Assembly (NCBI RefSeq): GCF_900104035.1
Contig: NZ_FNIT01000007.1
Span: 124,001 to 188,000, forward strand
Source of the DNA: Aureimonas jatrophae
Lineage (GTDB): Bacteria > Pseudomonadota > Alphaproteobacteria > Rhizobiales > Rhizobiaceae
Direction: 5' to 3'
Length of the DNA stretch: 64,000 nucleotides
This document shows, in pieces, positions 39,348 through 54,761 of this stretch. The notes beneath the pieces are model-generated. The model had not been told where the DNA came from and did not search any database. It was given only the letters and a program-made list of their open reading frames with translations. The stretch's first letter is position 1; each line of letters starts with the position of its first letter. The position numbers were made by a program, and so were the translations under genes.

Positions 39348-39474
39348 AAACAGCCCCTTCTCGCGATCTCGTTAAGGTTGCATATGACATTTTATCTTAC
39401 ACATTCTGGTGTGTAGAACGGTGCGGAGAAGCGACTACTTTCGTAACCTTATCGCGCGTGATGGTCTGCCCCCA

Positions 39475-40454
39475 TTAGGTGGCCCGGTTCAAAACTAATG
39501 CATGGTAGGCTTGTTGGCGACGTTCGAGGTGGCCGGCCGAGCGGGGTTGGGTAGCGCAGGCGGCCACGGTACGGCGCCGGGTGCTGGCGGAGGTTAGCCC
39601 AGCGAGGAGTGCGGGCGCACCGTGTTGTAGTGCTGTCGCCAGATCTCGATGACGATGCGGGCCGAGGCCAACGCTGTAGACGATCTCGCCGTTCAGGAGT
39701 TCGTCCCGGAGCTTCGAATTGAAGCTCTTGCAGGTGCCGTTCTCCCATGGGCTGCCGCGCTCGATGAAGGCGGTCCTGGCGCCTATCGCCGTGATCCAGT
39801 CGCGCACCGCCTTGGCGATGAACTCCGGACCGTTCTTCGGGCCATCGATACTGGATCGATGGCTGACCCTCTGAACTTGGTACGGATGTGTCCCGGCACC
39901 CCGTGCAGGATGAAGAGCTCGGACAACACGTCGATGACGTCGGTGGATTTGAGCTTCCGGTCGATCCGTATGGCAAGGCATTCGCGGGTGAACTGATCGA
40001 TCAGATTGAGCATGCGGAACTTGCGCCCGTTGTGGGTTCGGCCCTCGACGAAGTCATAGTACCAGACATGATTGGGGCGCTCGGGCCGAAGCCGAACGCA
40101 GGACCCGTCGTTCGACCAGAGCCGACCCTTCTTGGGCTGCCTAGCTGGCACCTTCAGCCCTTCCTGCCGCCAGATGCGCTCAACCCGCTTCACGTTCACG
40201 AGCCAGCCGGCATCCCGCAGCAAAGCCGCGATGCGCCTGTACCCATAGCGCCCGTAGCGTGTTGCCAGTTCGATGATGTCGGCCGTCAGCGCCGCATCGT
40301 CGGCTCGCCCCTTGGGTGCCTTGCGCTGTGTCGATCGGTGCTGCCCCAGAACCCGGCACGCCAGCCGCTCCGACACGCCGAACTTGCGCACGGTATGGTC
40401 GATGCAGCGCCGCCGCCGGTTCGAAGAGTCACGCGCCTCTTCGAAGGGCATCAC
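39475..40454 (-). pseudogene. IS3-family transposase orfB, frameshifted
   Basis: The first 190 residues are intact in one frame: CRVLGQHRSTQRKAPKGR, YGRYGYRRIAALLRDAGW, then YDFVEGRTHNGRKFRMLNLIDQFTREC with the first catalytic aspartate, and IDVLSELFILHGVPGHIR. There the sequence normally continues SDNGPEF, but a roughly 47-base insert including a palindrome replaces the second aspartate and shifts the frame. NGPEFIAKAVRDWITAIGARTAF and SPWENG continue in the second frame, and HYNTVRPHSSLG appears in a third. The transposase is therefore inactive. Confidence 0.88.
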
Positions 40455-40750
40455 CGGTTTCCCGATGCGTTCGGCAAAGCCTCACATGTCAAGATCAGCT
40501 TCTCCAGCGTCAGGTCCGACACGGCCTTGCGAAGGCGCTCGTTCTCCTTCTCGAGGTCCTTCAGCCGTTTGACCTGGTCGGACTTCAGTCCACCGAACTC
40601 CTTTCGCCACCGGTAGTAGGTGAACGGCGTCACGCTGATCGTGCGGACCGCCTCCGCCACCGGGCGGCCCTGCGACAGCAACACGTCGACCTGCCGAAGC
40701 TTGGCGAGGATCTCCTCGGGCTTGCGCTTCTTCTGCGGCATTCCTGGCAT
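40451..40750 (-). CDS. IS3-family transposase orfA
   Basis: A helix-turn-helix DNA-binding protein of 96-99 residues: RKPEEILAKLRQVDVLLSQG, then the motif TPFTYYRWRKEFGGLK and a leucine-zipper helix RLKDLEKENERLRKAVSDL. This is the standard N-terminal subunit of IS3 transposases. It overlaps orfB by four bases, where these elements use a programmed frameshift to make the full transposase. MPQKKRK at 40741 is the more usual start. Confidence 0.9.
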   Translation of the reverse strand: MPGMPQKKRKPEEILAKLRQVDVLLSQGRPVAEAVRTISVTPFTYYRWRKEFGGLKSDQVKRLKDLEKENERLRKAVSDLTLEKLILTCEALPNASGNR

Positions 40751-40791: not shown

Positions 40792-41865
40792 TCAGGGGGC
40801 AGACCAAGAGCCTTTATAACCCTCGGATACCATAGCGAAAACGGTGCCGCCGAAGCCAACGGTTGCGAGGACGGCCCATCCGACGAACACGTTTCTGGAG
40901 ATATCTCCCTGCCAGACGACTAGGCGGTAGCATTCGACTGCCCACGCATGGGGTGTCACCCAGCTCCATTCCTGAATGTCGCTTGGCATGAGATAGCTCG
41001 GGAACATCGTTCCGCCCAACGCTGCCAAGAGGAGGAACAAGGCGGTCGAAAACGGCTGGGCCTGCTCACGCGACCGACAGATCGCGCAGAGGGCCATGGC
41101 GATGCCGCCGGCCGCGAAGGCGACTGCGGTTGCCGTCACGAGCCAAGCCAAACCCGACAGGTGGTCCGCGACCGGCACGTAGCGATAGGCGACCGCGAAC
41201 ACGCATAGGGTCTGAAGCAGCCCTACGATGGTCAACCAGACGATCCGTGCCCCGACGATGCGACCCATCCCGCCGGCAGCAAGGACCAGACGCGCCTGTA
41301 GCCCGGAGCGGCGATCGTCGAGTCCGATCATCGCACCATGCATGGCAGCGAAGAAGACGAACAGCGTGCTCACCGTTCCGGCGAGATAGGTTCGCTGGTA
41401 GTCGCCTTCCGGACCGACCAGACGATGGCTCACCCGTGCAGCCTCGAACTTCCGGTCGTGCATTCGATCGACGATCCCGCTCGCCTGGCCTGCGAGCGTC
41501 ATGACGGTGAGCGGATCCTCGGCTCCCCTGACGATGTCGAACGATAGCGGGGCGTCCGGCGTCCCCCTGATGACGAGACCTGCGTCCGACAAACCAGACC
41601 CGACGGATTCTTCGATATCCCGTGTGTCGCGGGCGGCATGAAGCCCATCACCGTAGATCGCGCCGAGTCCTTTCACGACGGCAGCGCTACGGTCGTTGCG
41701 AACGGTGTCAAGAACATGCACCGTCGAACGAATCTCCTTTTGGATATCGGCGGTGAAAATCATGCCGAACACGAGGTAGAGCAGTGGCGGCAGGACGAGC
41801 GTCATGACACAGCCCGTCCGGTCACGCAGGAAACTCCGAGCGTAGGCGAGGACGATGGCGATCAT
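40792..41865 (-). CDS. ABC-2-type transport permease
   Basis: A 357-residue membrane subunit with one N-terminal helix (VMTLVLPPLLYLVFGMIF), a large extracytoplasmic domain of about 170 residues and five C-terminal helices, the layout of ABC-2 permeases that export drugs, lipids or peptides. The ATG at 41865 overlaps the ATPase stop by four bases. The last few codons (WSAP) and the stop are supplied by the inverted repeat of the IS3 element, so the natural C-terminus was slightly changed. It is the last gene of a four-gene operon. Confidence 0.88.
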   Translation of the reverse strand: MIAIVLAYARSFLRDRTGCVMTLVLPPLLYLVFGMIFTADIQKEIRSTVHVLDTVRNDRSAAVVKGLGAIYGDGLHAARDTRDIEESVGSGLSDAGLVIRGTPDAPLSFDIVRGAEDPLTVMTLAGQASGIVDRMHDRKFEAARVSHRLVGPEGDYQRTYLAGTVSTLFVFFAAMHGAMIGLDDRRSGLQARLVLAAGGMGRIVGARIVWLTIVGLLQTLCVFAVAYRYVPVADHLSGLAWLVTATAVAFAAGGIAMALCAICRSREQAQPFSTALFLLLAALGGTMFPSYLMPSDIQEWSWVTPHAWAVECYRLVVWQGDISRNVFVGWAVLATVGFGGTVFAMVSEGYKGSWSAP

Positions 41866-42911
41866 GGGGACGCTCTTCCGTCGGATTTGGCAAGGTCGGA
41901 AAGAACAGGTCGGCGCACGGTCATCGATCCTGCGTTGCGTTCGACGAGGCGTTCTACCAGGCGTGCCTGGGCGATGGGATCGCAGCCGACGAACCGCCAG
42001 CAGGTGCCGTTGTCGGCTGGAGCGAACGCCACGTCTCGAAGGCGTCCGGCGTCCTCCCATCCGACCGGCGCATCGAAGCGCAACTCAAGGAACTGCGACG
42101 ATCCGAAGGTCTGAGACACCAGATCCTTGCCGCAACCCTCAAGCGCGACGCACCCGTCCTCGATGAGCGCGATGCGATCGGCGACCCGATCGACGAACCG
42201 GTCATCGTGACTGACCAGCAGACAACCGGTTCCGTCCGAAGCCGCGTTGCGGACCGCGTCGCCGATCAGGAGGCGCGTATCCTCGTCGACCGCTTCGGTC
42301 GGCTCGTCCAGGACGAGCAGACGGGCATCGCCCATCAGAGCGACGGCGAGGTTGACACGCTTCTTCCAACCGCCGGACAGGGAGCCTACGATCTGATCGG
42401 CTCGTTCGAACAGATCGAGGTCGGAAAGCAAGCGATCGATCCTGCGGGCACGAGACTGTCGATCCCCCAACTGGAGGGATGCGAACACGGACAGGTTCTC
42501 GTGGATCGTGAGGGCGGGAAACAGGGCACAGTCCTGTGGACAGTGACCGACGTCACGGAATCTTCCCCGACGCGTGCCTGGAGCGCGACCCGCAACGAGA
42601 ACCGTTCCCGACCTCGGGTTCAGGAGACCGCAGGCGACCTGCGCGGTGGTGGACTTGCCTGCGCCGTTTCGACCTACGAGAGCCACGACCTCGCCTGCCG
42701 AGACGCGCAGGTTCAGATCCTGCAGCACCGTCGAGCGGCCATATCCCGCGACGACGTCTTGCAGAACCAACGCGTCCTGCGTCACCTGCTCCGCACTCGC
42801 AACGCCGGTCCGGATCCGAGAACCGGTGACCCGCCACCAGCTCGTCCATCGCTTCTCATCCACCGGAGCCGAACGGCCCGCGACGTCGACGGTTGCTTCG
42901 ACCGGCATCAC
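41862..42911 (-). CDS. ABC transporter ATP-binding protein
   Basis: A 349-residue ATPase. After a ~50-residue N-terminal extension come the Walker A VGRNGAGKSTT, Q-loop HCPQDCALFP, an unusual signature SLSGGWKKRV in place of LSGGQ, Walker B RLLVLDEPTEAVDE and the switch VSHDDRF. A C-terminal domain of about 90 residues resembles the extra domain of drug-export ATPases. It is coupled by ATGA overlaps to the FAH-like gene before it and the permease after it, so ATPase and permease form one exporter. Confidence 0.92.
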   Translation of the reverse strand: MMPVEATVDVAGRSAPVDEKRWTSWWRVTGSRIRTGVASAEQVTQDALVLQDVVAGYGRSTVLQDLNLRVSAGEVVALVGRNGAGKSTTAQVACGLLNPRSGTVLVAGRAPGTRRGRFRDVGHCPQDCALFPALTIHENLSVFASLQLGDRQSRARRIDRLLSDLDLFERADQIVGSLSGGWKKRVNLAVALMGDARLLVLDEPTEAVDEDTRLLIGDAVRNAASDGTGCLLVSHDDRFVDRVADRIALIEDGCVALEGCGKDLVSQTFGSSQFLELRFDAPVGWEDAGRLRDVAFAPADNGTCWRFVGCDPIAQARLVERLVERNAGSMTVRRPVLSDLAKSDGRASP

Positions 42912-44068
42912 GGGACGATCCGGTTGCGCACGATGCCGAGACGGTCCGCGATCCCGACCACCTCGTCGTCGGGCTGGAGGTAGCGTCTATCGCGCTTCGC
43001 CTCGCGGATCGCCGGGCCCACCATCGCGTCCCGCATCCGCCTGGGATCGGAAAGCCCTTCCAGAATGCCGAGCGCGACCTGTCGGACGCTCGGCGGCCTG
43101 AACACGACACCGTCCGTCGTGCCCGACAGGATGACCGTGCGCGGAAGGATGGCTCGCCCGGCGATCGGAAGCGAGGCCAGACCGCCCTGCCATTCCCATT
43201 GCCGATCGCGTGCAGCGACGCTCTGTCGGACGATCTCGCCCATGTCCCAGACCATCTCGCCGGGCAGCGCGACCTGACGCAAGGTACCGTTGACGTAGAG
43301 CCGCAGTTCCAGTGTCCGATAGAACCGATCGGTGTCGCGTGGAACGACGAAGAGGTTGCCGACCGGCATGTAGCCCCTGCGGCTCTTGGCATCGGTGAAG
43401 CCTATCCCCGACTCGATGTCGGTGAATTGGCTCCGTCTCAGAAGGATTTCGCGATCCGTGTAGTCGGTGGCGAGCACGAGGCCCATGGTCGGGGTATCCA
43501 CGCCGCCGGGTGGCAGCGGGACGAAGCCGAGCTCCATCTCGTAGTCGAGAAGTCCGCCACCGACGGAAACGGCCGCGTCGAAGCGCTCTGGCGGTCTCAT
43601 CTTCGGAAAGAGAAAGGACTCCTCCAAGGTCGTTTCCGCCATGTGCGAAGGATAGTTCCCGCCGATGGCGATCTGCACGTTGCGCCCATCGAAAGGAACG
43701 ACGAGCGCCCCTTCCTCCACGGTGACGGGGTTCCCGATAGCGTCCATCACCTCCGCGAACGAGGCGTGGCCCATGAGCGTCACGGGATCGGCTCTGGCGT
43801 CGTCTGCGGTCAGCGCGTCGAGCGCGATGCCGCGAACGATGCCGTCGTCGTAGCTCTCGACGCGCAGGAGACGCAACCGCTCACCGTCCCGGTAGCGGGC
43901 GAAGGTCAAGGCATCGACCGTCGGAGCGATGGATACGCCTCGGGCCCCACCGTCCGGGAGCCGTCCCGCGACGGGTGGGGCATAGGGCGGCTCCTGGAGG
44001 GAATAGGCCACCCCGATCGCCGCCGATATCGTCGCCAGGGCCGCGACCATCCATACCCGCCTCCTCAC
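42908..44068 (-). CDS. membrane-anchored fumarylacetoacetate-hydrolase-family protein
   Basis: A 386-residue protein. The N-terminus RRRVWMVAALATISAAIGVAYSLQ is a signal anchor that should place the rest in the periplasm. The catalytic part resembles the FAH fold: NYPSHMAE, the metal-binding YEMELGFV (E-x-E), the ATDYTDRE loop, DAKSRRGYMPVGNLFVVP, LRLYVNGTLRQVALPGEMVWDMGEIV and VILSGTTDGVVF. FAH proteins cleave or decarboxylate beta-diketo acids in the cytoplasm, so an exported form is odd. The GTG at 44068 overlaps the previous stop; ATG 44050 with AGGAGG upstream is an alternative. Confidence 0.78.
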   Translation of the reverse strand: MRRRVWMVAALATISAAIGVAYSLQEPPYAPPVAGRLPDGGARGVSIAPTVDALTFARYRDGERLRLLRVESYDDGIVRGIALDALTADDARADPVTLMGHASFAEVMDAIGNPVTVEEGALVVPFDGRNVQIAIGGNYPSHMAETTLEESFLFPKMRPPERFDAAVSVGGGLLDYEMELGFVPLPPGGVDTPTMGLVLATDYTDREILLRRSQFTDIESGIGFTDAKSRRGYMPVGNLFVVPRDTDRFYRTLELRLYVNGTLRQVALPGEMVWDMGEIVRQSVAARDRQWEWQGGLASLPIAGRAILPRTVILSGTTDGVVFRPPSVRQVALGILEGLSDPRRMRDAMVGPAIREAKRDRRYLQPDDEVVGIADRLGIVRNRIVP

Positions 44069-44805
44069 GCCAGTTTCCCACGCCCGAGACGCGATGCGGC
44101 CGGCGATCGTTCGACGTGCCACCACTTGCGTCGGAAACGCGCGGAAGCGTTTCCGACGATGGGCCTTCCGCGTCCGAAGCAGGCCGTCTCGAACGACAGT
44201 CTCGCCAGCCGCCACTGACTGCGCCGACCTGTCTCAAGATCCTCGAAGGCGATGGGATCGCCCAACCCGAAGACGTTCGCGCAGGCGTCGCCCGCGAACA
44301 GGACGCCGCGAGGACGCCAGAGAAGGGCGACCTGACCGGCGCAGTGGCCGGGAACGTGCACGACCTGCAGGCCGCCGGCGATCCGCAGCACTTCGCCGTC
44401 GGCGATCGTGGCGTCGATCGCCACCGGCTCGACGGTTGTGGAAGGCTTCGGTCCGAACATTCGAAACAAGGTACTGGGCAGAAGACCTGGAGCTGCGCGC
44501 ATCGGACGGAACTTGCCGCCGCGCTCGGCGATCGCACGATCCGCAGCGTGGATCAGGACCTTCGCTCCGGTCTGCCGGACCAACGCGGCAGCGTTGCCGA
44601 TGCGGTCGGGATGGGCATGCGTCAGGACGATGTGCTTGAGGTGGGAGACCGGGCGGCCGAGGTCGACGATCGCATTCAAGATAGCGGTTGCGTGTCCCGG
44701 GATGCCGCTATCGATCAACGTCACGCTGTCGCCATCCTCCAAGAGAAACGCGTTCGCTCCGCCGTGCGAGATCATGTGGACATGGTCTGTGACCGGGGTC
44801 GACAT
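44065..44805 (-). CDS. metallo-beta-lactamase-fold hydrolase
   Basis: A 246-residue MBL-fold protein. The zinc motif is THAHPDRIG, followed by VPGHCAGQ, LFAGDACANVFG and a C-terminal segment. No signal peptide is present. The ATG at 44805 has AAAGGA seven bases upstream. It is the first gene of the MBL-FAH-ATPase-permease operon, in which every neighbour overlaps by four bases. MBL proteins hydrolyse esters, thioesters, lactones or lactams; no substrate can be assigned, but the exporter suggests detoxification or export of a small molecule. Confidence 0.88.
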   Translation of the reverse strand: MSTPVTDHVHMISHGGANAFLLEDGDSVTLIDSGIPGHATAILNAIVDLGRPVSHLKHIVLTHAHPDRIGNAAALVRQTGAKVLIHAADRAIAERGGKFRPMRAAPGLLPSTLFRMFGPKPSTTVEPVAIDATIADGEVLRIAGGLQVVHVPGHCAGQVALLWRPRGVLFAGDACANVFGLGDPIAFEDLETGRRSQWRLARLSFETACFGRGRPIVGNASARFRRKWWHVERSPAASRLGRGKLA

Positions 44806-44854: not shown

Positions 44855-44907
44855 AACCTAGCTTGGCACCGACAGGAGATGGGCTTAGGTTTGTTGCGGT
44901 TTGTTGC
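44855..44907 (-). promoter_or_regulatory. direct-repeat promoter of the MBL-FAH-ABC operon
   Basis: On the sense (minus) strand GCAAC-AAACC-GCAAC is part of an exact tandem repeat of the 10-base unit GCAACAAACC. After 32 bases comes TAGGTT, a possible -10 element. The box is about 83-102 bases before the MBL start. The same layout precedes the RND adaptor and MipA genes. Confidence 0.65.
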
Positions 44908-45031
44908 GTTCGAGGCCGCCGTATGCCGAGACCTCGGCATGCGGCGCGGACGAACGGCGATCTCATCGTGCGAATGGATGGGTTTCGAGTTGCCGGTGCC
45001 GCTTCGGGCACCGGCACGAGACGCATCGGTC

Positions 45032-48000
45032 TCACGTGACGGACGCTTCGGCCCGTCCACCGGAGCCGATGCGCGACAGAACGCGCCGAAGCGCGTTCGA
45101 TGCGTCACCCATCAGCGTATGCAAGGCCGGCACGACGACCAGCGACAGGAGCGTCGAGACGACGAGGCCGCCGATCACCGCGATCGCCATGGGTGCACGG
45201 AAGTCGCCGCCCTCGCCAAGAGCCAGCGCCGCCGGCACCATACCGGCGACCATCGCGAGCGTCGTCATGACGATGGGACGGGCCCGCTCGCGGCCTGCGG
45301 CGACCGATGCCTCGGCCCGCGACAGTCCCTCACGCTCGCCTTCCTGGGCGAAGTCGAGAAGCATGATGGCGTTCTTGGTGACGATGCCCATCAGCATCAG
45401 GATGCCGATGACGACGGGCAGCGAGACCGCCGTTCCCGTCAGCATCAGTGCGGCGACGACGCCGGCCAGCGAGAGGGGTAGCGTGACGAGGATGGTGACC
45501 GGCGTCACGACGCTGCCGAACAGGAGCACGAGCACCACGAAGACGAGGCCGATACCGAGCCCCATGGCCGAGGCGAAGCCGGAGAACACGTTCCCTTGCG
45601 TGTCGGAGTCACCGCTCGCCTCCAGGCGAACGCCCGCCGGCAGACCGCGCACCGCGACCAGGGCTCGCAACTCGTTCATGCCCGGGCCCGAGGCCATGCC
45701 CTCCGGCGTGTCGAAGGCAACGTCGATCCGCCGTTCCCGGTCGCGGCGCTCGATACGCGACACACGCTCGGCGAAGTCGACGTCGGCGAGCTGCGCCAGG
45801 GGTACGAGCCGCCCGTCGTCGGCAGGAACGCGCTGGGTCCGCAGAGTCTCCAGATCGTCACGGGCGGATCGCTCGAGTTGAAGCCGGATCGGAATGCGGC
45901 GGTCGCGATCGATGAACTCGGCCAGATCGTCGTCGTAGGCCCCAACGGTCGCGACACGGACCGTGTCGGCCAGCGCCGTGGTGGTCACGCCCGCATTGGC
46001 CATCCGCTCGATGTCGGGACGGATGCGGATCTCGGGCGTGCGGGCCGTCTCGCTGGAGGCAGGGGCGACCGCGAAGGGAGCCATGGCGAGATCGCGAAGC
46101 ATCGCGTCGGCCGCCTCGCTCGCCGCCGTACCATCACGCGACAGGATCGAGACCGACACGTCGCGCTCGCCTGAACTGTTCAGCGGCTCAAAGCCGATGT
46201 CGGGGACGCGGCGCAACGCGTCCGCGACGAGCGGAGTCAACGCCTGGGCGGATAGGGCGCGTTCGGTCTTTGGTTCGAGGATCACCAACAGGGATGCGAG
46301 GTTGAGCCCCCGTTGACCCGAGGCGTTCGTGCCCCCTCGAATGAAGATGCCGCCGACCCCGTCCAAGTTCTTCAACTCATTGCGGATCGTCTCGGCCGTG
46401 GACCGGGTGTCGTCGAGGGACGATCCAGCGGGTAGTTCCACCGAGACCTGGATCTTGCCGTTGTCCTCGTCCGGCAGGAAGGCCGTGGGCAGGCGGATGG
46501 CGAGCGCGAGCGAGCCGGCGAACAGGAGAACGGCGACCGCGACCGTCGTACCGCGCCAAGTGACCGCGATGCGCAGAAGCGAAGCATAGGCGCGCTCGAC
46601 CATGCCAGGAGCCCTGCGAATCTCGGCGTGGAAGCGCATCAGGTGGACCGCGAGGAGGGGAGTGACGAGGCGTGCCACCAGCAGCGAGAAGAACACGGCA
46701 ATCGCGACCGTCAGGCCGAACTCGCGGAAGTACTGCCCGACCACCCCGCTCATGAAGCCGACCGGCATGAACACGGCGATGATGGTGGCCGCGATAGCGG
46801 TGACGGTGAGGCCGATCTGCGCCGAAGCGTCGATCGCGGCCTGACGGGCCGGTTTGCCCATGCGGCCGTGCCGCTCGATGTTCTCGATCTCGACGATCGC
46901 GTCGTCGACCAGAATGCCCGCGACCAACGTGATCCCGAGAAGGCTGATGATGTTGAGCGAGAAGCCGAGAAGCTGCATCGCCCAGAAGGTCGGGACGATG
47001 GCGAGCGGCAGGGCGACGGCCGCGACCGCGGTGGCCCGCCAGTCGCGCAGGAACAAGAATACCACGACCATGGCGAGGAGGGACCCTTCCGCCAGCGTCT
47101 TGAGGGCCGAGTGGTAGTTGCCGAGCGTGTAGGTGACGCTGTCGTCGATCCGGCTGAAGCGGACGGTGGGATGCGCCGTCAGCAGTTCGCCGATCGCCTC
47201 GTCGACGACATCCGCCACGCCGACGTCGCTGGCGCCGCGGGCTCGCAGCACGCTGAAGCCGACCACCTCCGTCCCGTCCAGGACGCCGAACCCGTCGGGC
47301 TCGGCATAGGTGTCGATCACCGTGCCGAGGCTTCCGAGCGTCGCCGAGGATCCGTTGGGAAGCCGGATCGCGGTGGCTTCGAGATCCTCCAGCGAGCGCA
47401 GCGTCGCGACCGTCGAGACCATGCGGTCGACATCACCCGTTCGCATCGTGCCTCCACCCGCATCGAACGCAAGGCGACCAAGCTCGGCGTTGACCTGCGA
47501 GGCGGTGACGTCGAGCGCCAGGAGCCGATCGGGATCGAGACGGATCTGGATCTCGCGGTCCACCCCGCCGATCCGCTCCACACGGCCAATGCCGGCTCGC
47601 GAGCGCAACTCGCGGGTCACGACGTCGTCCACGAAGAAGGACAGCTCCTCGCGGGTCAGCGAAGGGTCGGCCACCGCGTAGGTGACGACCGGTCCGCTCT
47701 CGGCCTCGACGCGGGCGACGACCGGCTCGTCGATGCCGGAAGGAAAGTCGCTGCGCACGGAGGCGACGGCGTCGCGTACGTCGGCGACGGCTCGGTCGAT
47801 CGGAACGCTCAACTCGAACTCGACGGTGGTGACGGAGCGGCCCATCTCGACAACGGACTCGAGCTCCTCGATGCCGGTCAGGCTGGCGACGGCGTCCTCG
47901 ACGCGCTGCGTGATCGCCGTCTCGATGTCTTCGGGTGCGGCGCCCGGATCGCCGATCGTGACCGTGACGAGGGGAACGTCGATCGTCGGGAAGTACGTGA

Positions 48001-48100
48001 TCGGCAGCGAGCGGAAGGAGAGAAGCCCCAGTGCGGTCAGAACCACGAAGAGGACCGTGGTCGGCAGCGGATGACGGATCGCCCAGGCGGAGACGTTCAT
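45032..48100 (-). CDS. RND-family efflux pump, inner-membrane transporter
   Basis: A 1,022-residue proton-driven pump of the HAE1 family. It has 12 helices with two large periplasmic loops; helix 4 carries GILVDDAIVEIENIERH with the two aspartates of the proton relay, and the later half has GIVTKNAIMLLDFAQEG with the lysine. Such pumps expel drugs, dyes, bile acids or solvents with an adaptor and an outer-membrane channel. The ATG at 48100 overlaps the adaptor stop. No outer-membrane channel gene is nearby. Confidence 0.95.
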   Translation of the reverse strand: MNVSAWAIRHPLPTTVLFVVLTALGLLSFRSLPITYFPTIDVPLVTVTIGDPGAAPEDIETAITQRVEDAVASLTGIEELESVVEMGRSVTTVEFELSVPIDRAVADVRDAVASVRSDFPSGIDEPVVARVEAESGPVVTYAVADPSLTREELSFFVDDVVTRELRSRAGIGRVERIGGVDREIQIRLDPDRLLALDVTASQVNAELGRLAFDAGGGTMRTGDVDRMVSTVATLRSLEDLEATAIRLPNGSSATLGSLGTVIDTYAEPDGFGVLDGTEVVGFSVLRARGASDVGVADVVDEAIGELLTAHPTVRFSRIDDSVTYTLGNYHSALKTLAEGSLLAMVVVFLFLRDWRATAVAAVALPLAIVPTFWAMQLLGFSLNIISLLGITLVAGILVDDAIVEIENIERHGRMGKPARQAAIDASAQIGLTVTAIAATIIAVFMPVGFMSGVVGQYFREFGLTVAIAVFFSLLVARLVTPLLAVHLMRFHAEIRRAPGMVERAYASLLRIAVTWRGTTVAVAVLLFAGSLALAIRLPTAFLPDEDNGKIQVSVELPAGSSLDDTRSTAETIRNELKNLDGVGGIFIRGGTNASGQRGLNLASLLVILEPKTERALSAQALTPLVADALRRVPDIGFEPLNSSGERDVSVSILSRDGTAASEAADAMLRDLAMAPFAVAPASSETARTPEIRIRPDIERMANAGVTTTALADTVRVATVGAYDDDLAEFIDRDRRIPIRLQLERSARDDLETLRTQRVPADDGRLVPLAQLADVDFAERVSRIERRDRERRIDVAFDTPEGMASGPGMNELRALVAVRGLPAGVRLEASGDSDTQGNVFSGFASAMGLGIGLVFVVLVLLFGSVVTPVTILVTLPLSLAGVVAALMLTGTAVSLPVVIGILMLMGIVTKNAIMLLDFAQEGEREGLSRAEASVAAGRERARPIVMTTLAMVAGMVPAALALGEGGDFRAPMAIAVIGGLVVSTLLSLVVVPALHTLMGDASNALRRVLSRIGSGGRAEASVT

Positions 48101-49350
48101 CGATCCGCCCTCGCGCTCTGCAAAGTGGGCGAGGGCTGGGACGGGATGTCGTAGGCGACCTCGACGGGCGCGATCCGGTCTCCTTCCGTGAGCAGGCTGC
48201 CTGCCTTCAGGACGACATGGGTGTCCTCCGCGAGACCGGAGGTGACATGGACGACATCGCCGACGCGAGCACCCGTCTTGACCCGGACGCGCTCCACGAC
48301 GCCCTCCCGCTCCTGCCACAGCGAACTCACGGCGCCATCGATCGAGACGGCGGATGCGGGAACGACGACGCCCTGGTGACGGGAGACTTCGACTTCGCCT
48401 CTCACGAAGGCGCCCGCGGGAAGACCGGCGGTGGCGGACAGGGCAATGCGGGCCCGGCCAAGGCGGGTCACCTCCGTCAACTCTGGCAGGACGAGCCTCA
48501 CCGTGCCGCGCACGGGCGCGTTCTGTCCGGAGATCCGGAGTTCGACGCCCTGTCCGACCCGGACCAGGGCGAAGTCCCGTTCCGCCAGTTCCACCTCAAC
48601 CTCGAGAACGGCGTTCTCCGACAGGATGAACAGCGGTTCACCCGCACTCGCGACCAGCATGCCGACGGTGGCGCCGCGCTTCTGGACGCGCCCGGCGACG
48701 GGGGCGCGTACCAGCGTCTTCTCGAGGCGAGTTGCCAACCGGGCCGCCTCGGCCTCGATCACCTGTCGATCGATCACGGCGAGCTGCAACGTCTGCGCCG
48801 CGATGGCTCGGGCGGCACCCGCTCGCTTCAGTGCGGTCTCCAGCGTCTCGGCCGCCTGTGAGGACGTAAAGCCCCGCTTCTGGAGGGAGCCGCCACGCCG
48901 CATGTCGCTCTCGGCCTGCGCCAGAGCGATCTCGGCGTCTTCCAGCCCGTTGCGGGCCTGGTTGATGGTCCCCTCGGTACGCAGGAGACGAGCGGACAGT
49001 TCGCGCTCGTCCGCCCGCATCATCGTGTCGTCCAGTCGGGCGAGGACGTCGCCGGCCCGCACGAGATCGCCAGCCTCGACCTCGACGGCCGTGAGGCGCA
49101 GGCCGTCGAGATCCGCCCGGAGCATGATCGCGTCCCGCGGCACGACGGTCCCGGTCGCGCGAACCGTCTGCACCACCTCGCCCGTTCGCGCGACCACGAC
49201 GCTGATGGATTGGGCCCCTTCGGGCATCTGCGCGGCGAGGGGGGAGGCCAGGCACGACGACACCAGCCCGAGCACTCCGACGATGGGTCGCAATCGTGGT
49301 CGCCGGGACGGCAGGGTTCGGATCGGGTGGTTCTGGTGCATGGTCGCCAC
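48097..49350 (-). CDS. RND efflux periplasmic adaptor
   Basis: A 417-residue membrane-fusion protein with a signal sequence (VGVLGLVSSCLASPLAAQ), split lipoyl motifs (LRLTAVEVEAGDLVRAGDVLARLDD and TLVRAPVAGRVQKRGATVGMLV), a helical hairpin and beta-barrel domains ending GDRIAPVEV. It links the RND pump to an outer-membrane channel. The second M (codon 4) is an alternative start. A direct-repeat promoter lies 65-110 bases upstream. Confidence 0.93.
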   Translation of the reverse strand: MATMHQNHPIRTLPSRRPRLRPIVGVLGLVSSCLASPLAAQMPEGAQSISVVVARTGEVVQTVRATGTVVPRDAIMLRADLDGLRLTAVEVEAGDLVRAGDVLARLDDTMMRADERELSARLLRTEGTINQARNGLEDAEIALAQAESDMRRGGSLQKRGFTSSQAAETLETALKRAGAARAIAAQTLQLAVIDRQVIEAEAARLATRLEKTLVRAPVAGRVQKRGATVGMLVASAGEPLFILSENAVLEVEVELAERDFALVRVGQGVELRISGQNAPVRGTVRLVLPELTEVTRLGRARIALSATAGLPAGAFVRGEVEVSRHQGVVVPASAVSIDGAVSSLWQEREGVVERVRVKTGARVGDVVHVTSGLAEDTHVVLKAGSLLTEGDRIAPVEVAYDIPSQPSPTLQSARADR

Positions 49351-49408
49351 GGCGTCGCTCCGGTCGGGTTCGCGGCGGACGTCGAACCGTCCGACCGCCG
49401 ATCCTCAA

Positions 49409-49461
49409 ACCGTAGGATGCTGGCCGTACGTGCCGGATGTCATCGTGTTGCGATACGTTGC
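49409..49461 (-). promoter_or_regulatory. direct-repeat promoter of the RND operon
   Basis: On the sense (minus) strand GCAAC-GTATC-GCAAC (49461-49447) is followed after exactly 32 bases by TACGGT (49414-49409). The layout is the same as at the MBL operon and MipA, and the distance to the start codon is similar (about 97-111 bases for the repeats). Confidence 0.65.
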
Positions 49462-49495
49462 GAAGCATGGGGCCCTGACACCGGGCATGCCGACG

Positions 49496-49801
49496 TCAGG
49501 ACGATTTCGACTCCGCTTCCACCTTTAGCCAGCGCATGATGTTGGCGGCCAAGACCCAGTCGTCTCCGTACTCCGACCCAAAGTCGTAGAGCAGGGCCGC
49601 GCTTATCAGATGTCCCGTTTGCGTCTCGGCAACTGTCATGGGGGCTGCAGCAGGCTGGACTGGCCGATAAGGCCAGAACATCCGCCGCGAATGGTGCAGG
49701 CTGAAGGCATCGACTGTCATGAATGACTTCCCGAACGCTTGGTCGTAGATCGAACCAGAGGGCTTGTGGCCTCGTCGCTCCATTCGCATGGTGATCCGCA
49801 A
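49496..49801 (-). CDS. hypothetical protein, up to 101 residues
   Basis: No family is recognised. The sequence SFMTVDAFSLHHSRRMFWPYRP and GHLISAALLYDFGSEYGDDWVLAANIMRW reads like a real small protein, and an internal ATG would give about 75 residues. The frame lies between the RND promoter and the response-regulator gene, on the same strand. Its start codon and ribosome site are weak, so expression is uncertain. Confidence 0.4.
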   Translation of the reverse strand: MRITMRMERRGHKPSGSIYDQAFGKSFMTVDAFSLHHSRRMFWPYRPVQPAAAPMTVAETQTGHLISAALLYDFGSEYGDDWVLAANIMRWLKVEAESKSS

Positions 49802-49967
49802 GATCGACCGCTACGGTGACTTGGTCCGACATCAACCTATCGATGAGGGAAGGAAGCAGGTTTGCGCGTTGTTGAGTTTTGTGTCGCCGGTGAGCGTTCT
49901 CCGCCACGTTCTCGCTTTTTGTAGCGATTGTCTGGGTGTGGACCAACAAGGTTGATCGCATTCGCGT

Positions 49968-50705
49968 TCAAGCGGACTCGACGCTGGCAGTGAACATGTA
50001 GCCCGCGAGCCGCACCGTGGTCAGCAAGGTGGGCTGCGCTGGGTCCGGCTCGATCTTGGCGCGTAGCCGACTGATATGGACGTCGATCGAGCGCTCGACG
50101 GGACCGGCCAGGCCAGCGTGGGTCATCGTCAGCAGCTGCTCCCGCGACAGGACGCGGTTCGGGTTGCGGCACAGGGCCAGCAGAAGATCGAACTCGGTCG
50201 TGGTCAACGACACGCGTGCCCCGCTCGGGTTGCGCACCTGCCGTCGCTTGGGATCGATCGTCCAGTCGTCGAAGCGAAGCGGGCGCGACGTGTCGCCTTC
50301 CTCCGGCGCATAGGAGGCGCGACGCAGCAGGCTTCGGATGCGGGCCATGACCTCACGGGTCGAGAACGGCTTCGTCACGTAGTCGTCGGCGCCGAGCTCG
50401 AGCCCGACGATCCGGTCGATCTCCTCGTGCTGGGCGGTCAGCATCAGGATCGGGATCGTGCTCTGGGCGCGAAGCCTGCGGCATATCTGGAACCCGTCCT
50501 CGCCGGGCAGCATCAGGTCGAGGACGATCAGGTCGAAGGTCTCACGCCGCATCTGCACGTCCATCTCGATACCGCTTCCGGCGGTGCGGGCCGTCATGCC
50601 CGCTTCATCCAGCGTCTTCGCCAGGAGGGAAGCGATAACCGGATCGTCCTCCACCACGAGGATCATCGGTTGCTCGCGATCGGAGCGTGAGAATGTGGAC
50701 ATCAT
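49968..50705 (-). CDS. OmpR-family response regulator
   Basis: A 245-residue regulator. The receiver domain has acidic residues VVEDD, phosphorylated Asp63 in IVLDLMLPGEDG, and the conserved lysine in DDYVTKPF. The C-terminal winged helix shows LTTTEFDLLLALCRNPNRVLSREQL and VERSIDVHISRLRAKIE, typical of OmpR/PhoB proteins that bind tandem direct repeats. The MM start at 50705 follows the sensor stop by 47 bases. It is likely the activator of the GCAAC-repeat promoters of this cluster, though this is an inference. Confidence 0.93.
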   Translation of the reverse strand: MMSTFSRSDREQPMILVVEDDPVIASLLAKTLDEAGMTARTAGSGIEMDVQMRRETFDLIVLDLMLPGEDGFQICRRLRAQSTIPILMLTAQHEEIDRIVGLELGADDYVTKPFSTREVMARIRSLLRRASYAPEEGDTSRPLRFDDWTIDPKRRQVRNPSGARVSLTTTEFDLLLALCRNPNRVLSREQLLTMTHAGLAGPVERSIDVHISRLRAKIEPDPAQPTLLTTVRLAGYMFTASVESA

Positions 50706-50752
50706 GGTACTCTGCAACGGTTGCAACCAAGGGTGAACGGACGTCATCCGCT

Positions 50753-52114
50753 TCAGGAGTTCGGCGGAGAAGCGTTGCCGAGCGAGGGTAGACGCAGGCG
50801 AACCACAAGGCCGTGCGGCTGGCGATCGTGCAGCTCCAGCGTGCCACCATGGGCTCGCACGATGTCCGCGACGATCGACAGGCCCAGCCCGAAGCCCTTC
50901 GGGGAGTTCGGGCCGCGCGACGCATCGAGCTTGTAGAAGGGCTCCAGAACCAGCTCGCGCTTGTCGGCGGGGATACCGGGACCGTCGTCGGCGACTTCGA
51001 TCCAGTACTCGCTCCCGTTCGGCACCAGGGAAACCACGGCCTCCTGGCCGAACTTGAGAGCGTTGTCGCAGAGATTGTTGACGGCGCGGGTCAGGGCATT
51101 CGGGCGACAGACCGCCGACAACCGATCCGGTCCCTCGTAGCGAACGGGGAAGCCGACATCGGCGAACTCGCATTGAATGGTCTGGAGAAGGCTGGCGACG
51201 TCGAGCTTCTCGGCCTCCTCGCCCAACGCGTCCGTGCGCAGGTAGGCGAGCGTCTCCCCGATCAAGGCGTCGATCTGCTCGATGTCTCCCAGCATCGACT
51301 GACGGGTGGTGACGTCGTCCAGGCGCTCGGCGCGCAGCCGCAGGCGCGTCAGGGGCGTTCGCAGGTCGTGACTGACGCTGCGCAGCATGCGCATGCGCAT
51401 ATCGACCATACTGCGGATGCGGGTCCGCATCCCATTCAGCGCCTTGGCCAACCGAACGATCTCGACGGTGCCGCGCTCGGCGATCGGCGTGTCCTTCGAG
51501 ACGCCGTCGCTTCGATCGAGTTCGTCGACGATCCGTGCCAGCGGGTTGGCGAGCGCCTGAGCCGCGTAGACGGTGAACAGGACCAGAAGCGTTGCGAAGG
51601 CAAGAAGGTAGTAGGTCAGGGGCCCGGAAAAGTCCGTCGTCGATACCATGCTCGGCAGATTGCGCGCGACCAGAAAGGTCGAGCCGTCGATCGGGCACCA
51701 GAAGAACGGACGACCATCGACGATATCCCACCCACCGCCGGACGCCGGATAGGCATCTGGCGGGAACAGCCAGAAAACCCATCTCTCGAACGCGTACCCA
51801 TCGGCCGACATCGCCCGCATGGTCGCGAGAGCGGGTCGGTCGACGACCCGCAGTTCCAGCCCGGTGACGGCGAATCTCTCCAGCAGCCAAGACCGTTCCG
51901 CTTCGTCGGACCGCGCCATGACCTGCGCGATCAGCGACACGCGGTCGACCATCAGGTCGAGATCGGCGGACGCGAGAGGTCCCGTCTCGCGTAGCGGCTC
52001 GATTATACGTCCCACGACGATGACGGAGATCACGGCAACCAGGATCATCAGGATGATCTGGCCGCGCAGTGTCGAAGGATAAAGACGTTTCAAGACCACG
52101 TTCACGGACTTCAC
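50753..52114 (-). CDS. sensor histidine kinase
   Basis: A 453-residue membrane kinase. One helix at residues 17-36, a periplasmic domain of about 125 residues, a second helix at 166-187, a HAMP linker, and the phosphorylated His249 in RSVSHDLRTPLTRLRLRAE. The ATPase part has NLCDNALKFG, DDGPGIPADKR and GFGLGLSIV. It phosphorylates the regulator encoded 47 bases downstream. The GTG at 52114 is the start of the long form; GTG 52105, with GAGG upstream, is also possible. Confidence 0.93.
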   Translation of the reverse strand: MKSVNVVLKRLYPSTLRGQIILMILVAVISVIVVGRIIEPLRETGPLASADLDLMVDRVSLIAQVMARSDEAERSWLLERFAVTGLELRVVDRPALATMRAMSADGYAFERWVFWLFPPDAYPASGGGWDIVDGRPFFWCPIDGSTFLVARNLPSMVSTTDFSGPLTYYLLAFATLLVLFTVYAAQALANPLARIVDELDRSDGVSKDTPIAERGTVEIVRLAKALNGMRTRIRSMVDMRMRMLRSVSHDLRTPLTRLRLRAERLDDVTTRQSMLGDIEQIDALIGETLAYLRTDALGEEAEKLDVASLLQTIQCEFADVGFPVRYEGPDRLSAVCRPNALTRAVNNLCDNALKFGQEAVVSLVPNGSEYWIEVADDGPGIPADKRELVLEPFYKLDASRGPNSPKGFGLGLSIVADIVRAHGGTLELHDRQPHGLVVRLRLPSLGNASPPNS

Positions 52115-52993
52115 CTCGGACGGGGTCGTTCATGCCGAACCAGGGGAGCCGCTCGGTATCGTGCGCTCGTCCGATCGTAGTCCAGACCGAGCCCCGAACC
52201 CACCGAAGTCGGAACGCACGGCGACCACGGCGCGCGAACACGTGAGCAGAGGCACGTTCGATCGGGGCACGAGGCCGGTCGCGAACTCGTATGGAAAGCC
52301 GCGAAGCGAAGCCGGGACAGTCCCTTGCGGACCGACATCTCGTCGCTCGGGTGCCGCTTGCGGGGCGAGAACGCCCGGCCGGTACCGGTTTTCGAATAGT
52401 CCGACGTCTTTCCATCGAACACCACGGGAAGCATGGCTTCGCACTTCCGTCGGTAGGCGAAGGCGTTACCTCCCGTGGCTTGCCGGGAGAACATCCCTTT
52501 GGCCATCAGGGACAGACGGACGGCACCGCTCGGCGGCACGATGTTCACGGTTGTAGGTCCTCGAAGTCGAAGGTGACGACTCGCCCGCGAGCGTCGTGGA
52601 ACCGGCTTCTACGACATGCTCCACCGCCGGCTTGTGTGGAAATGTTTCGGTTTGTGTCGACGAGCTTCGCGGCGACATCGATCGAGCGCCCTTCAACGAC
52701 CGCGTTCGAGACGGTCTGCACGTTCTGTCCATGGAACCTCAGGACGAGGGAGGGCCACCGTAGATATCCTGAAGTTATCGCTTCCCTGCCATCTGTACGG
52801 ACCGGACGTCAGCCGGCGGCTCCCGGACCATCGAGAATTGGGTTCAGGGACGTGAGGCGACGATCACCTCGTCGCAACACATGGCAACACTTCAAAATCT
52901 CGTTCGCACCGTCGAGCGGCTACCCCTGGAACGTCCAAACGCTTCCCGGTCGAGTTCATTCGCCTCTCCGGGACCCAGAGTACCGGAGTTCCC
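52115..52993. other. 879-base region between divergent sensor kinase and MipA genes
   Basis: Open frames exist on both strands, but none has a recognised product or good ribosome site. The region should hold the promoter of the two-component system and, near the right end, that of MipA (the repeat box at 52874-52888). It is rather long for a plain promoter region, so an unrecognised small gene is possible. Confidence 0.5.
52874..52926 (+). promoter_or_regulatory. direct-repeat promoter of the MipA gene
   Basis: GCAAC-ACATG-GCAAC at 52874-52888 is followed after exactly 32 bases by TACCCC (52921-52926, then T). The repeats are about 106-120 bases before the MipA start codon, in the same orientation as at the RND and MBL promoters. 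Confidence 0.55.
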
Positions 52994-53890
52994 ATGTCGC
53001 GTTCGTCCATCTCGCCGTCGTCCCGCCGTACAACTGCAAGATTTCTCAAGCGTCTACTCCTCGCCGGGCTATCGATGACCGCCTCCGTGACCTCCGCGTC
53101 CGAGGCCGTGGCGGCCGATGCGTCCGTCGACGAGATGCGCAGCGGCGAGGTTCCATCCGTCTCGTCGCAGCCTGACCCCTCCCGTTTCGGGCGGATCGTC
53201 GAGCGCCTGGGCGAATGGGAGGTCGTGGTTGGGGGCGGTGCGCTGATCGAGCCCGAGTACGAAGGATCGGACGAGTTCGAAGTCACCCCCGTCCCCTTCG
53301 TCTCCGCAACCTACGGTGACTGGCTGAAGATCGATCCGACGGGTGCAGCCGCTACCGTCTACCGGACCGATGCGATCCGCCTGGACGGGCTGCTCGGCTA
53401 CGAGACGGGACGCTCGGAAGACGACTCCGACAGGCTCCGGGGTCTGGGCGACGTCGACTTCGGCGTGAACGTCGGAGCGCTGGCCGCCCTAGAGGTTGGA
53501 CCGGCAGAACTCTTTGTCAGCGCCCAGAAGACCATCGGCGGAAGCGACGGCTTCGTCGCCGAAGCGGGAGCCGAGGTCGAGTATGCCGTCTCGCAGTCAC
53601 TGTTTCTCGGCCTGAAGGGTTCGGCGACCTTTGCCGATGAGAAGCACATGCAGGCCTACTTCGGGATCGACGCCGTGCAATCCGTCCGTTCCGGCTACGC
53701 GGCATACGAGCCGGACGCCGGCATCAAGCGCGTCGATCTCGCTGCCACCGCCACGTTCGCCTTCAACGAGAACTGGTTCGCACGGGGTGAGGCGGGTGTG
53801 GGCGTTCTGATCGGCGATGCCGCCGACAGCCCGATCGTTCAGGACGAGATCCAGCCGTCCGGTCTGCTGCTCGTCGGCTACCGGTTCTAA
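52994..53890 (+). CDS. MipA/OmpV-family outer-membrane protein
   Basis: A 298-residue outer-membrane beta-barrel. A signal sequence ending at AVAA (about residue 41) is followed by VVVGGGALIEPEYEGSDEFEVTPVPFVSATYGDWLKI, the start of the MipA/OmpV barrel, and by alternating strands to the terminal LLLVGYRF with the C-terminal phenylalanine. Members bind or sense cationic antimicrobials in some bacteria and often neighbour two-component systems. The adjacent sensor kinase is divergently transcribed. It may be the first gene of a unit with the membrane methyltransferase 235 bases downstream. Confidence 0.9.
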   Translation: MSRSSISPSSRRTTARFLKRLLLAGLSMTASVTSASEAVAADASVDEMRSGEVPSVSSQPDPSRFGRIVERLGEWEVVVGGGALIEPEYEGSDEFEVTPVPFVSATYGDWLKIDPTGAAATVYRTDAIRLDGLLGYETGRSEDDSDRLRGLGDVDFGVNVGALAALEVGPAELFVSAQKTIGGSDGFVAEAGAEVEYAVSQSLFLGLKGSATFADEKHMQAYFGIDAVQSVRSGYAAYEPDAGIKRVDLAATATFAFNENWFARGEAGVGVLIGDAADSPIVQDEIQPSGLLLVGYRF

Positions 53891-54125
53891 GGGCATCGGG
53901 CCGTCCTGAGACATGCACTCGGGAAGCCTCGGCTCCCGGGTCTGCCAGCCTCCGAGCGACACTCCGGTCCCGACATCCGTGAACGAGTGGCCTCGAACGC
54001 ACCCCGGCCTCGTTCCGGAGCGCGAGCCTTCGGAGGCCGCAACATTCCGTAACCGAATGAAGCGTCGGGCATCGCGCCGACATTCCATTCTGATCCCGAC
54101 GCGCCCTCATAACTGCGAGTTCGAG

Positions 54126-54761
54126 ATGACGTTTGATCTATCGACTGTCCTTGCCGGCCTGGACGAGATCCAGTCACGCAGGAAGCTAGCCGTCTGGACG
54201 ACGGTTCTCGCACTGGCACCGGCGTTCTTCTTCACGCGTTCGTCGGCGGAGCCCGGTTCCTGGACGCACGGCCTCGTTGCCGGCGTCGGCGTCGCGATGG
54301 TCGTCGCGGCGGTCCTGGGACGGTCCTGGTGCACGCTCTTTATCGGCGGACGGAAGGTCCGCGACCTCGTGACGGTCGGTCCCTATTCGATCGTCCGCAA
54401 TCCCCTGTACGTCTTCTCGTTCCTGGGCGTCGGCGGGCTCGCGGCACAGACCGGAAGCCTCACCGTGACCCTTCTTGTGACCCTGATCGCCGCCGCCCTT
54501 TTCGTTCCCGTGGTCCGGGAGGAGGAGACGGCGCTCGCTCGTCTCCATGGAAAACGGTTCGACGCGTACCGCGACGCCGTCCCGCGCTTCATTCCCAGAC
54601 CCTCCCTTTGGCGCAGCGTCGACGTTCTGTCGGTCGCACCGGGGCGCTGGACCCGCACCGTTCTTGACGGCTGCGTCATGCTGGCCATCATTCCGCTCGT
54701 CAGGAGTCTTGGTTGGGTCCAGGCGACCATGCCCGAACTCCCCTTGCTGCAACTTCCTTGA
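54126..54761 (+). CDS. isoprenylcysteine carboxyl methyltransferase-like membrane protein
   Basis: A 211-residue protein with about five helices and the ICMT/phospholipid methyltransferase motif GPYSIVRNPLYVFSF, followed by REEETALARLHGKRFDAYRDAVPRFIP, which is the SAM-binding region of the family. Bacterial homologues have unknown substrates, possibly lipids. The ATG at 54126 has a weak ribosome site; the upstream open frame is shadow. The GRKVRDLVTVGPYS segment matches family proteins closely. Confidence 0.87.
   Translation: MTFDLSTVLAGLDEIQSRRKLAVWTTVLALAPAFFFTRSSAEPGSWTHGLVAGVGVAMVVAAVLGRSWCTLFIGGRKVRDLVTVGPYSIVRNPLYVFSFLGVGGLAAQTGSLTVTLLVTLIAAALFVPVVREEETALARLHGKRFDAYRDAVPRFIPRPSLWRSVDVLSVAPGRWTRTVLDGCVMLAIIPLVRSLGWVQATMPELPLLQLP

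Follow-up and report, generated by a model that had tools for sequence, protein, structure and literature searches.

Genes and GCAAC repeats of the cluster

The 64-kb stretch analysed here (the window) carries an MBL-fold hydrolase operon, an RND pump operon, a two-component system, a MipA/OmpV gene and a membrane methyltransferase gene in one cluster. The genes are as follows:

40792..42911, minus: ABC ATPase and ABC-2 permease (Pfam), probably the end of the MBL operon
42908..44215, minus: FAA-hydrolase-like ORF, probably in the MBL operon (Pfam FAA_hydrolase, 42.2 bits); true start probably near 44050
44065..44805, minus: MBL-fold hydrolase (Pfam Lactamase_B, 87.2 bits)
45032..48100, minus: RND permease (Pfam ACR_tran, 724.6 bits)
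48097..49350, minus: RND periplasmic adaptor (Pfam HlyD_D23; NCBIfam RND_mfp above cut-off)
49496..49801, minus: 101-aa ORF, no family in Pfam or NCBIfam
49968..50705, minus: OmpR-family response regulator, to which the box described below presumably belongs (Pfam Response_reg and Trans_reg_C)
50753..52114, minus: EnvZ-like histidine kinase (HATPase_c and HisKA; HAMP just under cut-off)
52994..53890, plus: MipA/OmpV outer-membrane protein (Pfam MipA, 159.6 bits)
54126..54761, plus: membrane methyltransferase of the PEMT/ICMT type (Pfam PEMT 45.0 bits, ICMT 30.8 bits)

The genes of the MBL-fold hydrolase, the FAA-hydrolase-like protein and the ABC-2 exporter all run in one direction. The MBL-fold protein is under the cut-off of every family among the best 25 of the 42 NCBIfam families matched. 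The regulator has the receiver and winged-helix Trans_reg_C domains of the OmpR/PhoB family. Its best NCBIfam model is OmpR (226.9 against a cut-off of 331) and that of the kinase is EnvZ (177 against 415); because both miss the equivalog cut-offs, we rejected the assignment of the pair as OmpR/EnvZ orthologues. The hydropathy profile of the kinase contains two hydrophobic stretches (windows starting at 11-24 and 162-171) with about 120 residues between them. For the 101-aa ORF, tblastn found no relative in 20 loci. Rfam gave nothing at gathering score between 40 and 56 kb of the window, and a tRNA scan found none in the window. At the cluster edge (39449-40750), the translated ORFs resemble what we take to be parts of an IS3-type transposase.

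The original prediction placed GCAAC-N5-GCAAC direct repeats upstream of the MBL operon, the RND operon and MipA, and the repeats are indeed found at 44893-44907 (minus), 49447-49461 (minus) and 52874-52888 (plus). No other exact copy occurs in the window (shuffle mean 0.12; none of 100 shuffles reached 3). Three copies within 8,072 bp give a Poisson P of 3.6e-6, for a pattern picked post hoc. The second repeat lies 87, 96 and 105 bases from the start codon used. The pattern occurs 16 times in the 4.59-Mb genome (8 times for a backwards control pattern). The 13 copies outside the cluster, 9 of them inside predicted ORFs, score at most 8.7 with the window-free motif described below, against 22.2, 28.8 and 29.4 for the cluster copies.

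A box of three half-sites and its distance to the -10-like element

The kinase was sought in 199 genomes of the family, 21 of the genus and 397 of the order, and the neighbourhoods were retrieved. MipA, HlyD, AcrB, the regulator, the kinase and often the methyltransferase are found together in many of these loci, and reading the upstream regions brought out GCAACaaaacTTAAC. In an expectation-maximisation motif search of 49 upstream regions (5 of them from the window), the six best of 400 starts were one and the same box, GCCGCAACAAA.CTTAACA..Ac.AAAc.c, up to a shift of one. The motif was then retrained free of the window on 27 of the 44 non-window regions, which were selected after the 49-region search; the 17 left out were mostly upstream of operon-internal genes or lay on the opposite flank of divergent gene pairs. 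The retrained motif, GCCGCAACAAAtCTTAACA.gACgAAAC.c, reached a log-likelihood of 371, compared with 97-104 in three block-shuffled controls run with half as many starts.

The box consists of three half-sites at 10-bp steps, the third being weaker and one more turn downstream. In 71 sites of relatives, columns A7, A17 and A27 are A in 100, 100 and 89 %, and columns C8, C18 and C28 are C in 85, 82 and 62 %. The two-repeat unit of the original prediction is thus replaced by a 30-bp box with three half-sites, of which GCAAC is one spelling. GCAAC in the second position is usual in this species; the consensus of relatives is TTAAC, and the exact GCAAC-N5-GCAAC is not conserved among them (3 copies in 20 loci). 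The half-sites presumably resemble OmpR sites.

When the window was scored with the window-free motif, the six top sites (29.4-15.6) were all in cluster promoters and the next score was 7.3, so the cluster has six boxes and not three. The boxes and their -10-like elements, with offsets counted from the second half-site, are as follows:

44881..44910, minus: predicted regulator box, MBL operon promoter; score 22.2; half-sites GCAAC 44907-44903 and GCAAC 44897-44893, third at TAAGC
44855..44860, minus: -10-like TAGGTT of the MBL box, offset 32
49435..49464, minus: predicted regulator box, RND operon promoter; score 28.8; own-genome match of profile R1 (see below) at E 1.01
49409..49414, minus: -10-like TACGGT of the RND box, offset 32
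52871..52900, plus: predicted regulator box, MipA promoter; score 29.4, the best in the window; absent from the own-genome matches of R1
52921..52926, plus: -10-like TACCCC of the MipA box, offset 32
54036..54065, plus: new predicted box, phospholipid-methyltransferase-like gene; score 27.2; best R1 match, E 0.92; second half-site GTAAC
54086..54091, plus: -10-like CATTCT of the methyltransferase box, offset 32
52632..52661, minus: new predicted box, kinase-regulator operon; score 20.0; 518 bp before the kinase start
52606..52611, minus: -10-like TAGAAG of the kinase box, offset 32
49859..49888, minus: new predicted box, the weakest; score 15.6; before the 101-aa ORF or a second RND promoter
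49834..49839, minus: -10-like TAGGTT of the small-ORF box, offset 31

The three new boxes were invisible to the exact GCAAC search because their half-sites are spelled GTAAC, GAAAC, GACAC or TCAAC. Among 200 simulated windows, none had a site of at least 20 and 7 had any site of at least 15, so the weakest box by itself is not compelling. The gene behind this weak box is doubtful, and the box may instead belong to a second RND promoter. The stretch of roughly 0.5 kb that separates the kinase start from its box (52115-52631) holds no convincing gene and could be a long leader or contain a missed small gene. A palindrome, inverted TGCAACGGTTGCA, at 50713-50725 in the kinase-regulator gap, right before the regulator start, was rejected as a box with a best overlapping score of 7.3.

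The original prediction also placed a TA hexamer exactly 32 bases past the second repeat. TAGGTT, TACGGT and TACCCC are present in sense orientation at this distance at the three named promoters; across sites, however, the fixed distance relaxes to 31-33 bases. In the window, the offset is 32 at the MBL, RND, MipA and kinase boxes (TA) and at the methyltransferase box (CATTCT), and 31 at the small ORF (TA); the MBL, RND and MipA offsets belonged to the earlier claim and those of the three new boxes did not. In the 71 sites of relatives, TA starts at offsets 31, 32 and 33 in 12, 13 and 10 cases, compared with a mean of 1.12 over offsets 38-61, and smaller peaks occur at offsets 15 and 19 (5 and 6 cases). 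This tally is unselected and supersedes one of 54 hand-picked sites. The 42 sites from loci never in training gave 4, 8 and 7 at the same three offsets against 0.88, and the -10 offsets played no part in motif training. The preferred position relative to the -10 element, together with direct repeats 10 bp apart that are conserved at target promoters, agrees with a tandem-repeat regulon of the OmpR/PhoB family, for which a spacing of 10-11 bp is expected.

With the usual 17-base spacer, the -35 is expected about 8-13 bases past the second half-site, at the end of the third. A scan for the sigma-70 consensus found 1 match in 10.8 kb (0.8 expected) and none at the six boxes, and TACCCC is a poor -10. 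The geometry of box and -10-like element suggests class-II activation: at promoters with no recognisable -35, the regulator would recruit RNA polymerase in the class-II fashion. The third half-site overlaps the expected -35, as it would if the regulator were a repressor whose boxes cover the -35 and block the polymerase until stress. We consider repression improbable, since the absence of a consensus sigma-70 promoter at the six sites is what activator-dependent promoters would show. According to the available part of a study of CenR, sites lie upstream of the -35 at CenR-activated promoters and overlap promoter elements at repressed ones (PMC9275681), a rule that by itself is not decisive here. 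In Yersinia enterocolitica, the OmpR-activated RND operon acrAB has a putative OmpR site across its -35, as stated in the accessible text of that report (PMC4403819).

Occurrence of the box within and beyond the genome

Run against the window's genome at E≤10, profile R1, built from 41 hand-picked non-window sites, gave just two matches (E 0.92 and 1.01). Both matches are in the cluster, in line with a dedicated regulon; the other four boxes were not listed, and with E near 1 each match is weak individually. Profile R2 contains the six window sites and is circular for them. It returned the six boxes and one weak distal match (C15:67745, E 1.74), which we did not accept as a target. The genome has no convincing box sites outside the cluster.

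In relatives, the box stands before the same genes. Across 26 loci outside training, 32 positions scored at least 20 in 456,023 bp. With a rule that counted a box of at least 20 within 420 bp upstream of a gene, and that missed the MipA box in L158, a box was found upstream of MipA in 9/11 cases, HlyD in 2/3, the regulator in 3/25, the kinase in 0/26 and the methyltransferase in 1/6. The low counts for the last three indicate that neither these targets nor autoregulation is conserved in general. In L131 and L132, where the operon begins with MipA, only MipA has a box among MipA, HlyD, kinase and regulator. Four of the 46 loci had no site of at least 20 (L130, L140, L153 and L171); among them L153, from a member of the genus, has both regulator and kinase. 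As a negative control, 80 loci of other OmpR-family regulators (1,232,930 bp) yielded no position of at least 20; these were kept from the 261 of a regulator search in named genomes and are at most 51 % identical.

The box also follows the kinase among genomes. Within the genus, R1 matched (E≤5) 5 of 21 genomes, namely 5 of the 6 with the kinase and none of the 15 without it; 4 of the 5 matching genomes had supplied training sites, and the window's genome had not. Within the family, R1 matched (E≤0.1) 15 of 18 kinase genomes (kinase E≤1e-60) and 7 of 181 others; the kinase genomes with no match were the window's own, G159 and G027. The positive side of both counts is circular because all 15 family genomes and 4 of the 5 genus genomes supplied training sites, so Fisher tests on these counts are not fair, and the restriction of the box to kinase genomes in the genus, which supports a dedicated regulon, is partly circular. 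The absence of the box from genomes that lack the kinase is not circular. In L207 and L208, from genomes with no close kinase relative, a box-like sequence (21-23) lies about 170 bases before dapA. These dapA boxes, in G012 and G115, which both belong to one other genus, seem to reflect chance or a different regulator and were not retained.

Relatives of the kinase were present in 22 plasmid records, the named ones mostly from Rhizobium and Neorhizobium, and a box of at least 20 was found in 6/6 retrieved records, 2 of which have no gene annotation in the stretch. Plasmid boxes stand before MipA in Neorhizobium and in Tistrella, which belongs to Geminicoccales, a different order from the rhizobia, and before the RND adaptor in Rhizobium tumorigenes. 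In Martelella, two boxes lie in the gap between PAP2 and regulator genes, one facing each gene. ORFs downstream of boxes in relatives encode PAP2 phosphatases (L137, L139), an LTXXQ periplasmic protein (L206) and a patatin (L143), and a GT2-GtrA-PMT_2 glycosyltransferase (L129:10692-13373) has a box just upstream. The glycosyltransferase and the PAP2 genes hint at lipid remodelling. Further boxes lie before ORFs that form no clear theme, for example those for chorismate mutase (L203), amidohydrolase (L129) and iron-sulfur protein (L202). Among the 13 proteins of relatives scanned here, 4 had no Pfam match. Taken with MipA and the RND pump, the downstream ORFs make the regulon lean to envelope maintenance.

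L203 and L204 are two similar copies in G050 with divergent boxes between chorismate mutase and a small secreted-looking protein; they are possible distal regulon members in that genome. In another family, L165, L166 and L173 have paired divergent boxes about 45-75 bp apart and several kb from the regulator.

OmpR-like regulators form a large family and the window's genome has further kinases of the same type (8 matches), so the box might belong to another cellular regulator of the family, such as a core OmpR- or CenR-like one, with the in-cluster pair merely a target. This is unlikely, slightly more so than repression, given that none of the 15 genus genomes without the kinase matches the box and that the genome has no convincing distal site. 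In addition, the motif given for CenR in the excerpt of its report, TGA-N8-TGA (PMC9275681), differs from the box consensus; for this reason, and because the kinase is present in only 6/21 genus genomes, we rejected a CenR regulon. Chance repeats in GC-rich promoters, as might be suspected from the 13 exact copies elsewhere in the genome, are practically negligible as an explanation: the window-free training speaks strongly against them, as do the loci outside training, the negative loci and the -10 offset.

A proposed local regulon and its known counterparts

The box is conserved beside the regulator in relatives and keeps its position relative to the -10-like element. The comparison across genomes supports the original prediction that the OmpR-family regulator of the cluster has a regulon of its own, because a motif learned free of the window finds the three proposed sites and three more in the same cluster. 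We consider it very probable, judging from sequence, that the repeats serve as binding box for the regulator at 49968-50705, which would control a local regulon by class-II activation through the EnvZ-like kinase. Binding by this regulator, and activation rather than repression, are what we infer from the box. In the proposed mechanism, the kinase would phosphorylate the regulator, and two or three protomers would bind head to tail on GnAACA / KYAACA / nAAAC, 10 bp or one helical turn apart. The third half-site would reach the expected -35, a -10 of the YAnnnT type would begin 31-33 bases past the second half-site, and RNA polymerase would be recruited to the boxed promoters. The regulon would comprise the MBL operon, the RND pump, MipA, the PEMT-like enzyme, the kinase-regulator pair (autoregulation) and the small ORF.

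The best reading is a local envelope-stress regulon of MipA, the RND pump and the lipid-enzyme-like gene, which resembles ParRS-MipA-MexXY. ParRS of Pseudomonas aeruginosa is the nearest studied case. According to the available part of that work, polymyxins cause ParR/ParS to activate mipBA and mexXY, polymyxin is bound by MipA, and most of the mipA loci that its authors screened have a two-component system next to mipA (PMC10936184). As in the ParRS-MipA/MipB-MexXY arrangement outlined there, MipA here lies beside a two-component system and an RND pump has the same box. Unlike ParRS, the cluster regulator and kinase are best described as OmpR/EnvZ-like, and a lipid-enzyme-like gene joins the regulon. 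A gene of the MipB type (a beta-lactamase-fold lipoprotein) was not seen, as the Pfam-scanned cluster proteins contain no serine-beta-lactamase domain; the MBL-fold protein of the cluster is of another family than MipB and does not adjoin mipA.

BesR/BesS of Burkholderia thailandensis, in the accessible portion of its description (PMC9426598), controls an envelope-stress regulon that likewise holds a MipA/OmpV gene and an efflux operon, with penL, hopanoid and homoprotocatechuate operons as further targets. Its box consists of TGCG/TGCA repeats, unlike the GnAACA here. The signal would be envelope damage, perhaps by cationic peptides, with MipA as a possible co-sensor. From the ParRS and BesRS parallels, cationic peptides or general envelope damage are the likeliest signal, a proposal by analogy to which we give somewhat less than even odds. 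Still more tentatively, the cluster may represent a widespread accessory envelope-defence module of alphaproteobacteria, in which the MipA barrel would sense membrane-active compounds and feed the EnvZ/OmpR-like pair, and the pair would switch on the RND pump, MipA and lipid-modifying enzymes through the three-half-site promoter. If so, the module would parallel ParRS-MipA-MexXY, with a box of its own, and its lipid enzymes would be PEMT/ICMT-like here and the PAP2 phosphatases and GT2-GtrA-PMT_2 glycosyltransferase behind the box in relatives.

A pattern seen by eye thus becomes a sequence-defined regulon, whose box allows target genes to be predicted in related alphaproteobacteria. The cluster is a second setting in which MipA is tied to both an RND pump and a two-component system, so that the sensing role proposed for MipA can be put to the test, and its three-half-site layout with a preferred -10 distance suits the study of OmpR-family assembly at promoters.

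The enterobacterial OmpR/EnvZ system supplies the best NCBIfam models for the cluster regulator and kinase, but the cluster proteins are far under the family cut-offs and, within its genus, the system is an accessory one. Tandem repeats at one-turn spacing are characteristic of OmpR-family regulators, as the excerpted CenR study notes, and CenR of Rhodobacter sphaeroides, likewise an envelope regulator of the OmpR family in an alphaproteobacterium, has a tandem repeat of about one turn; it is described there as essential (PMC9275681), unlike the system here with its sporadic kinase. No motif was found in the available part of PMC10746171. By title and abstract opening, no description of this regulon was found among the best matches in the open-access literature. 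ArcA of E. coli, also of the OmpR/PhoB family, has three to five direct-repeat elements at most of its sites, mostly in 11-bp steps and in varied architecture, according to the accessible part of that report (PMC3798270); the steps here are 10 bp, and the box keeps a preferred distance from the -10. The cluster regulon appears to be new; tandem-repeat regulation by the OmpR family and sites with three or more repeats, as in ArcA, were already known.
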